A DNA stretch of 64,000 bases from contig AP019005.1 in assembly GCA_003945285.1 (NCBI GenBank), positions 248,001 through 312,000 of the forward strand, read 5' to 3'. Made by a program: the position numbers and the translations under genes. Shown here piece by piece: positions 4,735-48,776 of this stretch (positions are counted from its first letter, which is position 1; every line of letters begins with the position of its first letter). The notes beneath the pieces are model-generated. The model had not been told where the DNA came from. It saw nothing but the letters and a program-made list of their open reading frames with translations, and searched no databases. This DNA comes from Hydrogenimonas sp. GTDB taxonomy: Bacteria; Campylobacterota; Campylobacteria; Campylobacterales; Hydrogenimonadaceae.

Positions 4735-4853
4735 AGCTTGAGCGAAGTCCAAGCCTTGGCGGGGAGTGACTCTTCCCCCTGCGCCCCCCTTAAGCTGCGA
4801 AATAGTAGATTTCGAGATGATGTCACGCTTTTTGCGTAACATCGGTTAACAAT
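4735..4853 (-). repeat. Dispersed intergenic repeat, copy 1 (about 120 bp)
   Basis: Read on the minus strand, this segment aligns along its length with 41853-41975: a GATGTTACGC-A5-GCGTGACATC hairpin, two ATTTCG-like blocks, a GGGGG...TCACTCCCCGCC section, then AAGGCTTGGACTTCGCTCAAGCTTTACG. Similarity is roughly three in four bases by eye, with one single-base gap. It sits between the two prepilin genes. The adjoining 4615-4734 stretch holds a further AATATAAAG/CTTTATATT inverted repeat and no gene. Confidence 0.7.
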
Positions 4854-41196: not shown

Positions 41197-41852
41197 ATTA
41201 CAGCAGTCTGTATAAGCTGCAGGATGCGGTTATGGATATCGTCTTCGGTGTAGAGAATGAGTTCTATCTTACGGGAGGTACATGTCTTAGCCGTTTCTAT
41301 CATGAAAAGCGTTACTCGGATGATCTCGACTTTTTTACCAACGATTCACTTCGATTCAGTTTTGCCGTAAAGAATATCAAGAGGGAACTGCTTAAAAGAT
41401 TCGTTGTTACACCGGAGATCGAGGCGAAAGACTTCATTCGCTTCAGGGTGGAGCACCATCTTCAGGTAGATTTTGTAAACGATAGAACACCCCGCTTCAA
41501 AGATGTTGTAATCAGAAAAAACGGCTATATAATCGACAATGTGGAGAATATTCTTGCCAACAAGCTTACGGCCGTTATCGGCAGGGATAATCCCAAAGAT
41601 GTTTTCGATATCTATCTGATATGCAGATTCTACTCTTTCGACTGGGGCGAGATAGTAGATGCGGCATCGAATAAGGCTGTTTTCGCCCTTGAAGACCTTG
41701 TCGTGAAGCTCAAAAGTTTTCCCGTATCGCTGTTTGATAAAATCGAGATTACAGATCCGCATTTTCTCGATGGTTTCAATGCGGCTCTTGAAAAGATCAT
41801 AGATGAGATAGTAAAAAAAGAGTATCACCGACCGATCTATTTAAATCGGTAG
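41184..41852 (+). CDS. AbiEii/AbiGii-type nucleotidyltransferase
   Basis: 222 residues. The nucleotidyltransferase core is visible as YLTGGTCLSRFYHEKRYSDD followed by LDFF, giving the GG-T and DLD metal-binding motifs, and KDVFDIYLICRFYSF with the later conserved D. AbiEii toxins of type IV toxin-antitoxin systems transfer nucleotides to RNA. Its start lies inside the upstream small gene. The stop is directly followed by a repeat element that begins with a 10-bp perfect hairpin. Confidence 0.82.
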   Translation: MDSLDYSSLYKLQDAVMDIVFGVENEFYLTGGTCLSRFYHEKRYSDDLDFFTNDSLRFSFAVKNIKRELLKRFVVTPEIEAKDFIRFRVEHHLQVDFVNDRTPRFKDVVIRKNGYIIDNVENILANKLTAVIGRDNPKDVFDIYLICRFYSFDWGEIVDAASNKAVFALEDLVVKLKSFPVSLFDKIEITDPHFLDGFNAALEKIIDEIVKKEYHRPIYLNR

Positions 41853-41975
41853 ATGACGTTACGTAAAAAGCGTAACGTCAATTCGAAGTCTATGATTTCG
41901 TAGCTTTATGGGGGTGCAGAGGACGATCAGTCCCCGCCAAAGCTTGGGCTTTGCTCAAGCTTTGCGTAACATCAG
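41853..41975 (+). repeat. Dispersed intergenic repeat, copy 2 (about 123 bp)
   Basis: Starts with a perfect hairpin TGACGTTACG-7-CGTAACGTCA (41854-41880), continues with ATTTCGTAGC, GGGGGTGCAGAGG, TCAGTCCCCGCC and a second hairpin AAGCTTGGGCTTTGCTCAAGCTT (7-bp stem), and ends TGCGTAACATCAG. It aligns end to end with the minus strand of 4735-4853. The outer ends are themselves inverted (GACGTTACG.../...GCGTAACATC). It fills most of the AbiEii-galE gap. Confidence 0.7.
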
Positions 41976-45305: not shown

Positions 45306-46162
45306 TCTATATTCTAATTTCGGCGATTGCCGCGATTCTGCTCTATCCGGTCTGGGTCGTTCACAGGCAGACGCTGGGATCGCACGAAAAGGTCGAGAGA
45401 TCTCCCGCGGAGTGGGGGGTTGAGTTTGAAAACATAAGTTACGTAACAGACGACGGGCTGACGCTGCGCGGATGGTTCATCCCCGCCGAGGGAAGAGAGG
45501 CGGTTCTGCTGATGCACGGCAACGGGGGGAACCGCAACGGCTACACCAGCGGTATCTTCGATCTGGGCAGATGGTACCGCGGGCAGGGCTACAGCGTAAT
45601 GATGGTCGATCTAAGGGCCCACGGGGAGAGCGAAGGGGAGAGAATATATTTCGGAGTCAAAGAGAGTGCCGATATGCTGGGCTGGCTGAGCCGGGTCGAC
45701 GGATCCGGCCGCTTTACCTGGAGTCTTCACGGCTTCTCGATGGGTGCCGTTACGGCTTTGATGATGAAGGAGAGGGAGCCGAAACGTTTTGAAAAGGTTG
45801 TAGCCGACGCTCCCTGGATAGATTTCGAACTGCTCTCCAAACAGGAGCTGTGGCGCAGGGCCGACCTTCCCCCGCTCTTTTACGGCTATACGAAGCTGGT
45901 TGCCAAACTCTTCTTCGACATAGAGTTCAAAGAGGCTGACAACAGGCTAAGATGCAAAAAGCTGTGCAAAGAGCCTATACTCTATATATTCGAGTCTGAA
46001 GATACCCTTGTGACGAAAGAGCATATCGGGAGGCTTCGGGAAGCCTGTCCCGATGCGGAGATAGCGATATTCGAAAAGGCGGGGCATGTAGAGGCCTTCA
46101 AGGAGATGCCTGAACGGTACACCGAAACGGTTTCCCGGTTTTTGAAGTCGGTCAAAAGGTGA
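45302..46162 (+). CDS. Alpha/beta hydrolase with N-terminal membrane anchor
   Basis: 286 residues from the ATG that overlaps alr. An N-terminal helix (MIYILISAIAAILLYPVWVV) is followed by the hydrolase fold: oxyanion region LLMHGNGGNRNGY, nucleophile elbow LHGFSMGAVTA (Ser), an acid in FESEDTLVTKEH and the catalytic His in KAGHVEAFKEMP. Resembles BAAT/abhydrolase_1-type serine esterases of unknown substrate. The 3' end overlaps the cytochrome gene by 11 bases, convergently. Confidence 0.85.
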   Translation: MIYILISAIAAILLYPVWVVHRQTLGSHEKVERSPAEWGVEFENISYVTDDGLTLRGWFIPAEGREAVLLMHGNGGNRNGYTSGIFDLGRWYRGQGYSVMMVDLRAHGESEGERIYFGVKESADMLGWLSRVDGSGRFTWSLHGFSMGAVTALMMKEREPKRFEKVVADAPWIDFELLSKQELWRRADLPPLFYGYTKLVAKLFFDIEFKEADNRLRCKKLCKEPILYIFESEDTLVTKEHIGRLREACPDAEIAIFEKAGHVEAFKEMPERYTETVSRFLKSVKR

Positions 46163-47315
46163 ACCGCTCCGTTTTCAGGGTGTGGAACTCTGTGAGGCGG
46201 CCCTTTTCTATTCCGAGCTTCTTCGCGGCTTTCGGGTTCACGATGTAGTAGCCCAGAACCGCTTTCACCCTGTCCCCCCTCTCTAAATTGAAGTCGAAGT
46301 CGATTTTGAGTGATTCGTGAGCCTCTATGCGGTTTTGCTTCAGAACCGTCTCCGCCGCCCACGGCATGGCCGGCCTGCCATCTTTCCCCAGCACGGTGAA
46401 GAATTCTACAGGCGGCAATTTGAACTCTTCGGCTCCTCTTTTTACCGTTACCCTGAGCTGTGCGAGTCTTAGAGGATGGGCGAAGAGGGTGTGGTCCGCC
46501 TCGTTTTTCAAAACTACCATTAATTTGCCGGCACTGTCGGATTTCACCTTCAGTTTGACCCAGTCAGCAAGCAGCTCCGGGCGGTTGTGGAGTCCGCTGA
46601 AACCGTGGTAGGCGTGGCTCTTCTCGCCGCTCAGGGTAGATATGGGACCCTCTACCTGCGGCATATGGCACGTTATGCAGTTTCTCTTTCCGTTTTTGGA
46701 GCGCTCGAGATCCATAGAGCAGACCGGGAAACCTTTCGAGTTCTTCTTGAACTCATGACATCCTAGGCACATCCTACCGTTGGAGAAGTTGACGTTACCG
46801 TAGTCTATGGTGTGAAACGGCGAGCCTTCGCTGCTCTTTCCCAGGCCCATCATATCACTGGTTTTATGGTACTTTACGACGCTCTTTTCCGTGCGGCCGT
46901 TCTTTGCGGCGTAGTAGAGCCTGCTCTTTTCGCTCACTATGTTTATGTTCGCCTTTTTGCCGTGCTCTATTCTCTCTATGCGGTGGCAGTAGGTACACCC
47001 GATCGGCTCGTATTTCTGGATCTCTCCCTTCTCTGGCAGTGCGGGCCGTCCATCTTTCAGCGCCTCAATAAGCTTTCTGTCCGACGGGGAGTGGCAGGTA
47101 GCGCAGTTGTACTTTCTCTTCTTTTTCAGCGGGTGCATGTTCCATACGGCCCTGTGCACTTTGTCGTTGTATATGGAAGATTTTCTGTGCATCGAGTCGC
47201 TGTATTCTCTGTATATGAGGGGGTGGCAGGTTTTGCAGATTTTCGAGCTTTCGAACTTCTGCACAGCGAATAGGGCGGTGAAAGATATAACCAAAAGAGT
47301 GATGTGGCGGTTCAT
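46152..47315 (-). CDS. Pentaheme c-type cytochrome
   Basis: 387 residues with a signal peptide (MNRHITLLVISFTALFA). Five CXXCH haem sites are visible: CKTCH, CATCH, CTYCH, CLGCH and CITCH, all in the first 230 residues; the last part is a beta-rich domain without haem sites. Layout resembles the cytochrome c554/NrfA-like multiheme group used in periplasmic electron transfer. No oxidoreductase partner is adjacent. Electron donor and acceptor are unknown. Confidence 0.88.
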   Translation of the reverse strand: MNRHITLLVISFTALFAVQKFESSKICKTCHPLIYREYSDSMHRKSSIYNDKVHRAVWNMHPLKKKRKYNCATCHSPSDRKLIEALKDGRPALPEKGEIQKYEPIGCTYCHRIERIEHGKKANINIVSEKSRLYYAAKNGRTEKSVVKYHKTSDMMGLGKSSEGSPFHTIDYGNVNFSNGRMCLGCHEFKKNSKGFPVCSMDLERSKNGKRNCITCHMPQVEGPISTLSGEKSHAYHGFSGLHNRPELLADWVKLKVKSDSAGKLMVVLKNEADHTLFAHPLRLAQLRVTVKRGAEEFKLPPVEFFTVLGKDGRPAMPWAAETVLKQNRIEAHESLKIDFDFNLERGDRVKAVLGYYIVNPKAAKKLGIEKGRLTEFHTLKTERFTF

Positions 47316-47340
47316 TGTATATCCTCGATATATGGCTGTA

Positions 47341-47508
47341 AGCCGGTGTTACGCAAAATTTGTCAGCCCCGGGATTTGAGTGGAAAAATATCGTTCAAAA
47401 ACCGCGCTTGCCCGTTAGGGCGCCGAAGGCGTCAGCGGTTTTTAGATATTTTGCAGCGTCCCGCAGGGCAAATCCCGCTCGGCGTGCAGGTTTTGCGTAA
47501 CACCGGCT
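47341..47508. repeat. 168-bp hairpin element with 18-bp perfect inverted ends
   Basis: Left end AGCCGGTGTTACGCAAAA and right end TTTTGCGTAACACCGGCT are exact complements. Nested inside are GGGATTTG/CAAATCCC, AAAATATC/GATATTTT and AAAAACCGC/GCGGTTTTT, in the right order, so nearly the whole unit pairs with itself. The core holds two small hairpins (GCCCGTTAGGGC, CGCCGAAGGCG). The ends share GTTACGCAAA with the repeats at 4735 and 41853. Upstream of the cytochrome gene. Confidence 0.75.
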
Positions 47509-47564
47509 ATAAATTTTCACGGATTATACTTATTATAATATTTGGTTCAGTTTAAGCCTCTTTT

Positions 47565-48776
47565 CTAAACCGAGTCGCGCAGTCTGAACGAGTTCAGCAG
47601 CGCGAACAGCAGTGCGGAAGCGGTGATAATATAGAGCAGGCTGTAGCCGCCGTAGTGGAGAATGAAACCGCCCAGAATCGAGAAGAACATACCGAGCGAG
47701 ACTATATTCATCTGAAGGGCCACGTACAGCGGGCGCTTGGCCTCCGGCGCAAGTATGAGAATGAGGTTTCCGGAAGCTATGCGGTTCCCGTCCGCCGCCG
47801 CTCCGAATAGGAAAAATATGATCATATAGAGGGGGAGAGAGTCTGCGAAAAAGGCGAGAAGTATGGCCGTAAGCTGCATAGATATGGCGATATTTGCCGT
47901 CAGCCTGTTGAGGCCGGCGCCGCTGAGTCTACCCCAAAGAACGTTGCTGAGCATCGCACCGACCATCTGGGTGGTGATGAGGATACCGACGGCCGTTCCC
48001 GTGAGGTCGATTTTGGTTTTCGCATCGAGGATGATGAAGGGCAGGGCGATGAGGTAGCTGTAGCCGAAGAGGAAAGTGGTTACCTGTATCTGCAGTTGCC
48101 TGTCGGCCTTGAGAGTCCGCAGGGCGTGTTTGAGAAACTCCCTGAACGATTCGATCTTTACGTCGAAATGCTCTTTTACGGGCTCATCCACCGTGGCGAA
48201 CGCGGCCAGACCGACTCCCATCAAAACGGCACTGAGCATGAAGAGGTAGCCGAAGTCGTACGGGGGCTCGAAGCTCTCGAGCACCCATGCCGCCACCGCA
48301 CCGCTTATGACCGCGCCCAGCCCGGCGAAAAACTGCCTCCACGCCATCGTCTTTCCGCGGAAACGGTGGGTGAAGATCTTCGCTATGATCTCCCTGAAGT
48401 AGATGGCTCCGAAGCCTGCGCTGAAGGAGAAGAGAAAGAGTCCGACGCCTATGCACCAGAGCGTCAGGGTCGGGTGCTCTTTGCCGAAGAGCATTATGCT
48501 TACGCCGATCATGAACCACGAAAAGAAGCGGAAGAGAAAGACGCGCCTGAGGTATGGGAGCATCAGCCTGTAGTGCTGGGCCTTGAAGGCGGCGAAGAGC
48601 TGCATGATAACCGCGCCGCCGCGCAGAAGCCCGCTGAAGAAACCCACAAGTACCGGGCTCCCTCCGAAGTAGCTCACCATAAGAGGTAGAATCGTGGCCG
48701 GTTCGGCGACAGTGGTCCCTACGGCGAGAAAGAAACCGTGGAGTATGTTTTTGACATGGTTGGAGAACTTATCCAT
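47565..48776 (-). CDS. MFS transporter
   Basis: 403 residues with about 12 membrane helices. Opening helix FLAVGTTVAEPATILPLMVSYF and a loop motif HRFRGKTMAWRQFFAG between helices, of MFS_1 type. The substrate is not evident. Genes on either side (cytochrome, TrpD2-like) give no functional clue. The ATG lies about 60 bases after the TrpD2-like stop. Confidence 0.82.
   Translation of the reverse strand: MDKFSNHVKNILHGFFLAVGTTVAEPATILPLMVSYFGGSPVLVGFFSGLLRGGAVIMQLFAAFKAQHYRLMLPYLRRVFLFRFFSWFMIGVSIMLFGKEHPTLTLWCIGVGLFLFSFSAGFGAIYFREIIAKIFTHRFRGKTMAWRQFFAGLGAVISGAVAAWVLESFEPPYDFGYLFMLSAVLMGVGLAAFATVDEPVKEHFDVKIESFREFLKHALRTLKADRQLQIQVTTFLFGYSYLIALPFIILDAKTKIDLTGTAVGILITTQMVGAMLSNVLWGRLSGAGLNRLTANIAISMQLTAILLAFFADSLPLYMIIFFLFGAAADGNRIASGNLILILAPEAKRPLYVALQMNIVSLGMFFSILGGFILHYGGYSLLYIITASALLFALLNSFRLRDSV

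Follow-up and report, generated by a model that had tools for sequence, protein, structure and literature searches.

The hairpin at positions 47343-47506 of the window, by which we mean the whole 64,000-nt stretch of Hydrogenimonas sp. DNA that was analysed, is almost certainly a copy of a MITE. Its interior holds a structured core of about 118 nt, which is very probably a module common to MITEs of different chassis. We propose that the MITE was moved in trans and that the core is a separate part, swapping between chassis, whose fold is kept for an RNA-level role. For this proposal as a whole we estimate a probability of about three in four. A previous reading, made from the sequence only, had called the hairpin MITE-like, and this was borne out by many copies, inverted ends with target duplications, a nested insertion, empty sites and a related insertion sequence (IS).

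Anatomy of the element

The element and its surroundings comprise the following features:

46152..47315, minus strand: multiheme cytochrome c gene with cytochrome c domains; start codon 27 bp from the element
47336..47342, no strand: left copy of a probable decayed 7-bp target duplication, CTGTAAG; 5 of 7 bases equal the right copy
47343..47506, plus strand: MITE copy, full length, 164 bp, 'chassis A' variant
47343..47358, plus strand: left terminal inverted repeat CCGGTGTTACGCAAAA; other copies most often have CTGACCTTACGCAAAA
47367..47485, plus strand: conserved structured core (covariance model R2, 105.3 bits)
47371..47378, plus strand: outer core arm GGGATTTG, pairs with 47469-47476
47385..47392, plus strand: P1 arm AAAATATC, pairs with 47445-47452; sequence varies by family, pairing is kept
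47397..47405, plus strand: P2 arm AAAAACCGC; 3 A-U pairs invariant in 51 distinct sequences, inner pairs covary
47410..47421, plus strand: P3 mini-hairpin GCCC-GTTA-GGGC; CCC/GGG nearly invariant
47422..47430, plus strand: P4 mini-hairpin GCC-GAA-GGC; covarying helix, loop often GNA
47435..47443, plus strand: P2 arm GCGGTTTTT
47445..47452, plus strand: P1 arm GATATTTT
47469..47476, plus strand: outer core arm CAAATCCC
47491..47506, minus strand: right terminal inverted repeat, complementary to the left one at every base and departing from the common form by the same four changes
47507..47513, no strand: right copy of the probable decayed 7-bp target duplication, CTATAAA
47521..47538, minus strand: GGATTATACTTATTATAA, conserved in the empty sites of two sister species; TATAAT on the minus strand
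47565-48776, minus strand: MFS gene, the other neighbour of the element

RNA folding of 47341-47508 gave a single long hairpin on either strand with two mini-hairpins at the apex. The plus strand folds with -85.5 kcal/mol (z -7.42) and the minus strand with -81.0 kcal/mol (z -6.89), and in both cases none of 200 shuffles equalled the native sequence. The sequence-only reading had described a near-complete hairpin of 168 bp with two central mini-hairpins and nested pairs, and the fold agrees with it on all of these, including the order of the pairs: the ends, then GGGATTTG/CAAATCCC, AAAATATC/GATATTTT and AAAAACCGC/GCGGTTTTT. Its perfect ends of 18 bp need a correction. The arms 47341-47358 and 47491-47508 are indeed 100% complementary, with a spacer of 132 nt, but the element itself ends two bases further inward. 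Because other copies place the element ends at 47343 and 47506, the outer AG/CT belongs to the flank, and the window copy has a perfect terminal inverted repeat of 16 bp, as is characteristic of a MITE. The ends had also been said to share a sequence with other repeats. GTTACGCAAA does occur exactly four times in the window, twice in this element and twice elsewhere, at 4831 and 41961, both in another repeat family. That second MITE-like family, at about 4735-4850 and 41845-41975, has GTTACGCAAA(G) ends and a different interior, which reads GCTTGAGC... / ...CCCCGCCAAAGC.

Copies in the genome and target duplications

The 168-bp query was compared by BLAST with the own genome, a single contig of 2,193,435 bp, and gave 46 aligned pieces in at least about 41 separate places. 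Some of these places are partial, and the remaining pieces are fragments or arm-to-arm cross-matches. Genome copy counts are lower bounds: 40 of the 91 first-look candidates were scored, and only some candidates were scored per genome. With up to 3 mismatches, the terminal 16-mer was found 111 + 113 times in the own genome, compared to 7 + 6 for a reversed control pattern. The element is thus short, lacks a transposase gene and is present in many copies. Uniqueness in the genome had been named previously as a finding that would speak against the MITE-like reading; it is contradicted by the places found. A unique local structure is likewise ruled out, by the BLAST copies and by the core matches of covariance model R2 in the own genome.

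The 30 best copies of the own genome were taken into an alignment. Most of them span from CTGACCTTACGCAAAA to its complement in 162-165 bp, typically 164-165 bp; the shortest, at 154 bp, has a deletion, and the longest, at 189 bp, carries short inserts. Target duplications were counted over 29 copies (L002-L030); the window copy was omitted because its end differs. Exact direct repeats of 6-8 bp flank 14 of the 29 copies (ten of 7 bp, three of 8 bp and one of 6 bp), repeats with one mismatch flank eight, and seven have no repeat. When flanks were mispaired as a control, exact repeats of at least 6 bp occurred in 2 of 812 pairings and one-mismatch repeats in 41 of 812. The consensus of the duplications in the own genome is TTAGTAA. 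The window copy itself agrees at 5 of 7 positions, and it is therefore an older copy or its site has changed since.

A nested insertion was also found by eye (L011/L142). Here, a copy lies inside the extreme end of a second-family MITE, with the 7 bp TTACTGA duplicated exactly, and the second-family MITE has a 7-bp duplication of its own, TAACTTA. Separately, a short insert resembling GAGGTGCCCTATA, or the complement of it, is found repeatedly near the P2/P1 junction at about one core position in L017, L021, L022, L023, L026, L027, L029, L030 and L204-L206. The word GGGCACCTC of this insert also abuts the ends of two copies (L195, L202) in G007, another genome of the genus.

A related transposase and the spread of the ends

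Among 18 genomes of the genus, the NCBIfam model NF049921 (IS701 family transposase) has one match place, in the own genome. This is a remnant at 1600119-1600427, which scores 56.7 bits, under the cut-off of the model, and ends at a CTGACGTTACGC repeat. Used as a protein query, the remnant found matches in 11 of 398 genomes of the order, the own genome included. The best of the others, G191, carries an intact IS of 1102 bp with CTGACCTTACGCA ends and a 351-aa transposase with DDE domains (Pfam). This transposase reaches 329.8 bits against NF049921 (cut-off 250), so that a member of the family lies within the same ends, and the terminal 13 bp of the G191 IS and the MITE are identical, as expected if the ends of a MITE match those of an autonomous element. 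In Bacteroidetes and Flavobacteriaceae assemblies the same end runs into the start of a similar transposase. The element resembles the IS701-type IS (NF049921) in its terminal CTGACCTTACGCA and differs from it in lacking a transposase gene and in its duplication of about 7 bp.

The IS701 group of ISfinder duplicates 4 bp. Duplications of 7 bp were seen in the MITE copies and in a truncated IS copy of G232 (L297), in which a piece of the transposase and similar ends remain and TTAATAA is duplicated exactly. No clean duplication of their own was seen for the two intact IS copies, those of G191 and G020. Taken together, the same ends and the 7-bp duplication point strongly to an IS701-type transposase as the mover. 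Such a DDE transposase would act in trans on CTGA(C/T)nTTACGC ends and would duplicate a target stretch of about 7 bp that is AT-rich and resembles TTAnTAA. The own genome retains its donor transposase in decayed form, as a remnant, so that its MITE copies are probably fossils, or are waiting for a new transposase. The decayed transposase (L171, G000:C1 at about 1600100-1602000) lies close to a gene for a type II Cas9 (TIGR01865, with 141.7 bits for the covered part).

In a genome collection of 257 Gb, searched on both strands, the 16-mer end matched 106 stretches, compared to an estimated 120 or so by chance. Matches were used where an assembly had several or where one was paired with an inverted end, and single matches were dropped. 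MITEs with the CTGACCTTACGCAAAA end and another interior were seen in the Desulfobacterales assembly JAMOPX01 (L061, L078, L083 and others) and in the Leptospiraceae assembly JAGOHK01 (L073, L076, L086, L109), with sizes of about 383 bp and 157 bp, respectively. R2 was run on 24 genomes reached through the 16-mer loci and matched one of them, weakly (29-32 bits) and in what appears to be an unrelated repeat; this control set contains the Desulfobacterales assembly, in which same-end MITEs are present and the core is absent. Judged from these sequences, the terminal end is shared across phyla and the core is not.

A phage or plasmid origin was rejected, as no match was found among 50,697 phage and 72,556 plasmid records. 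The core pattern was not found in viral contigs either; it was modelled on relatives rich in AT, so that the window copy would escape it.

Structure, covariation and spread of the core

In a DNA search of 60 relatives, five genomes matched, including the own genome. The other four belong to the same genus and match the middle of the element only. From these five genomes, 34 of 59 distinct cores were taken into alignment A1; 12 broken or inserted core copies had been set aside beforehand, and copies with inserts and near-duplicates were omitted. The consensus shows P1, P2 and two apical hairpins, with changes on both sides at 9 of 23 pairs. Covariance model R1, built from the A1 cores and thus trained on the genus, was run on 398 genomes of the order and at E 0.01 matched 40 of them, which belong to 12 of 87 genera; 30 of the 40 lie outside the training genus. 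Many of the positive genomes carry several core copies. All 55 loci chosen from the R1 matches matched at E 0.001. With R2, a second covariance model of the core, 397 genomes sampled from the phylum were searched and 22 had matches at E 0.001; the own genome gave 62 matches at E 0.01, the weakest of which are doubtful.

In an alignment of the 55 loci chosen with R1 (51 distinct rows), 95.0% of cells pair, compared to 76.0% after shuffling and at most 54.7% when the alignment is slid. Cells changed on both sides number 213 versus 71.7 in shuffles, and the covariation score is 0.499 versus 0.163 shuffled and at most 0.136 slid; such shuffles do not amount to a probability, because the alignment was fitted to the model and the sequences are related. 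RNAalifold predicted 26 pairs on the same alignment, with compensatory change in 21. Across families, P1, the inner part of P2 and P4 vary freely yet jointly. The CCC/GGG of P3 hardly varies, and the three A-U pairs of P2 never become another pair in the 51 rows. The alternative offered by the sequence-only reading, a large structured RNA, gains weight from this covariation across families. Correction within a palindrome could also be the sole source of the covariation, with no selection involved.

A known Rfam RNA is ruled out. Against 4227 families, no match was obtained at the window copy up to E 1, and 10 related loci gave one match, which is unrelated, below threshold and away from the core.

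Different chassis, hybrids and concerted changes of the ends

The core is found within clearly different ends. In G007, the ends read TACCAATCC and a 3-bp TNA duplication was seen by eye in 9 of 10 paired copies (4 of the 14 copies were left unpaired by the script). In G245, the ends read CAGGGCTGTTTCA, with exact 10-bp duplications in 3 of 4 copies. The ends in G083, CTGATGTTACGCACTTT, resemble those of the window element, and by eye G111 and G077 have CTGACTAAAT and G053 has ACCTAAATTATGCAA. The own genome also contains a second chassis with CGGTAATTCAAAAC ends, for which 22 + 22 end matches were found versus 4 + 1 for the reversed control. Several strong R2 core matches of the own genome sit in it. 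Nine of its copies were read and seven were paired by the script; 7-10 bp direct repeats lie near the ends in four of these seven, compared to 1 of 42 mispairings reaching 7 bp. One second-chassis core copy (L310, G000:C1:246723-246841) lies about 1.2 kb before the first base of the window. In one G007 copy (L202), the core is interrupted by a sequence starting CTGATGTTACGCA, that is, an IS701-type end inside a TACCAATCC-type element.

The own genome therefore harbours at least two core-bearing chassis, plus hybrids between them. L213 combines a first-chassis left end with a second-chassis right end. In L319, both outer ends are of the second chassis and the first-chassis right end lies within, and in L327 the left ends of both chassis stand in tandem. 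Duplications of 3, 7 and 10 bp imply different transposases. The hybrids of the own genome suggest that the core has probably swapped chassis by recombination, and it would have passed from one to another through the shared core sequence.

The ends themselves change in concert. Among the 30 copies, 10 end positions carry the same change on either side, and another 20 are changed at a single end. When the right ends were shuffled among copies, the mean was 0.91 concerted positions, and none of 10,000 trials reached 10. Four of the concerted positions are in the window copy, which explains why its two ends agree with one another but not with the remaining copies; without this copy the count is 6 versus a mean of 0.55, again reached by no shuffle. 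Shared subfamily ancestry may explain part of these changes, and template-switch correction between the palindrome arms would explain the remaining ones. Such correction would keep both ends matched when one of them changes, and could let a new end be copied onto the other side. Outside the own genome, L260 of G083 is a second case of concerted end change, as both of its ends differ jointly from the other G083 copies (CTAATATTCCA.ACTTT versus CTGATGTTACGC.ACTTT).

That one core is common to unrelated ends could also be expected if the core were a folded-DNA recombination site, attC-like or REP-like, that is mobile itself and has acquired inverted-end chassis secondarily. An asymmetric internal loop and GNA loops recur, as seen by eye, which would fit such a site. 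However, duplications, where found, flank the chassis and not the core, no naked core was established, and the alignment shows, by eye, no RYYYAAC to pair with the conserved GTTAAAA. We regard this explanation as very unlikely.

Genomic site and empty sites

The element was previously placed upstream of a pentaheme cytochrome gene. This is right: the gene at 46152-47315 lies on the minus strand, and five CXXCH motifs were counted by eye in its translation. Of 18 genomes of the genus, 16 have the MFS gene that lies on the other side. Fifteen orthologous loci were compared; the cytochrome gene is kept beside the MFS gene at nine besides that of the window. The core model matches one of the 15, the locus of the window, and none of the 14 in other genomes. 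The flanking sequences of the window copy, when joined, can be aligned with those of the sister species G005 and G017 across the point of insertion. Empty sites, as expected for a MITE, are thus present in relatives, and they contradict the absence of an empty-site allele, the other outcome that had been listed against the MITE-like reading.

The element separates GGATTATACTTATTATAA from the cytochrome gene. GGATTATACTTATTATAA is possibly the promoter of this gene, judging from its sequence; if so, the hairpin now lies within the 5′ leader of the gene. This position, between a conserved TATAAT-like sequence and the start codon of the cytochrome gene, together with the covariation of the core, is what would be expected of a structured regulatory RNA of the host, a small RNA or a UTR element, that was spread by transposition. 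Against such a host RNA stand the 62 places in one genome (R2 at E 0.01), the lack of the window copy at the orthologous loci of sister species, and the gene arrangement around the 30 copies, which fall into four orientation classes with 11, 9, 6 and 4 members and show no strong preference. On this evidence, we consider a host RNA unlikely. No ORF of at least 70 aa overlaps 20 of the 30 copies; the other 10 overlap mechanical ORFs from a simple ORF caller.

Possible function of the fold

Under our proposal, the fold would act in transcripts as a compact insulator, as a terminator-like element or as an mRNA-protecting UTR element, and in any of these forms would lower the cost of insertion beside genes. 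Over the core families, G-U cells outnumber A-C cells by 40 to 8. This excess favours a function at the RNA level, although single-stranded DNA could give the same. Among recent copies, the ratio is 1 versus 3 in each of G007 and G013 and 16 versus 6 in the own genome. A-tracts and T-tracts flank the P2 stem on both strands, resembling a two-way terminator. A terminator scan gave one plus-strand site in the core, and 2 sites in the region compared to a shuffled mean of 1.2. On balance, the fold probably has a selected function of some kind. The putative insulator or UTR role in particular, although our best guess, is rather doubtful, given the weak terminator scan, the four gene arrangements and the lack of a recent G-U excess in G007 and G013.

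The same data can be read as plain descent of a single old MITE lineage that dispersed through the order. Its ends would have drifted towards whatever transposases were resident, and its core would have been kept only by descent and palindrome self-correction, with no function. The 10 concerted end positions versus 0.91 in shuffles indicate that non-selective arm correction may exist, and the recent copies of G007 and G013 are free of a G-U excess, in agreement with this explanation. It accounts poorly for A-U pairs that are invariant and a CCC/GGG that is nearly so while neighbouring pairs vary, for the excess of G-U over A-C across families, and for duplications of 3, 7 and 10 bp that imply different transposases. 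We hold plain descent to be possible rather than probable. Stated in its most specific form, our own reading is that the core represents a new class of structured module outside Rfam that persists across the order by riding in non-autonomous elements of at least three transposition systems, swaps chassis by recombination through its own palindrome and is selected for an activity of its folded strand, probably as RNA; in this form it is put forward tentatively.

Comparison with known elements

Like the IS-derived MITEs, such as Correia elements, QMITE2 and TIMEs, the element is short, non-coding and intergenic and has inverted ends and duplications. QMITE2 of Coxiella is described with 7-9-bp duplications and a 113-145-bp core in a section of PMC10969869, and TIMEs are treated in a section of PMC4133298. 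Stem-loop transcripts are another trait of IS-derived MITEs, and the present element would also yield them if transcribed. Unlike Correia elements, QMITE2 and TIMEs, the core described here is common to MITEs of different ends and duplication lengths and covaries across families.

BOX, RUP and SPRITE of pneumococcus are presented in part of PMC10969869 as small repeats with mutual insertion that may act as terminators; compared by description, they differ from the present module, which crosses transposon types over an order. A resemblance by description links the element to ERIC, as both are multi-copy intergenic repeats of similar size, and ERIC and intergenic repeat units of enterobacteria are given as 127 and 168 bp in an excerpt of PMC2759123.

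ERIC is likewise palindromic and differs in its TA target and single set of ends. Integron attC sites have paired GTTRRRY / RYYYAAC boxes, and attC was rejected, since by eye the paired boxes are missing in core alignment A2. REP/BIME sequences are not known to have a target duplication and were ruled out by the size of the element and by its target duplications. REP is defined as a 20-40-bp palindrome with a GTAG/CGTC tag in a portion of PMC3733652.

Among the open-licence papers searched, we found neither an account of this element nor a covarying core common to differently ended MITEs, and such absence is weak evidence.

Implications

MITEs of this kind are already known, and it is the covarying core across differently ended MITEs for which no prior account was found. 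The interior of a MITE is usually taken as what remains after deletion of a transposase gene. In the present case, conservation is stronger in the interior, and it is the ends that can be exchanged. Should the fold be functional, it would represent a structured element that is widespread yet unlisted and has dozens of natural copies per genome. If it is not, the element would be a clear case of palindrome self-correction mimicking RNA-like covariation, and would serve as a warning for RNA-motif discovery.
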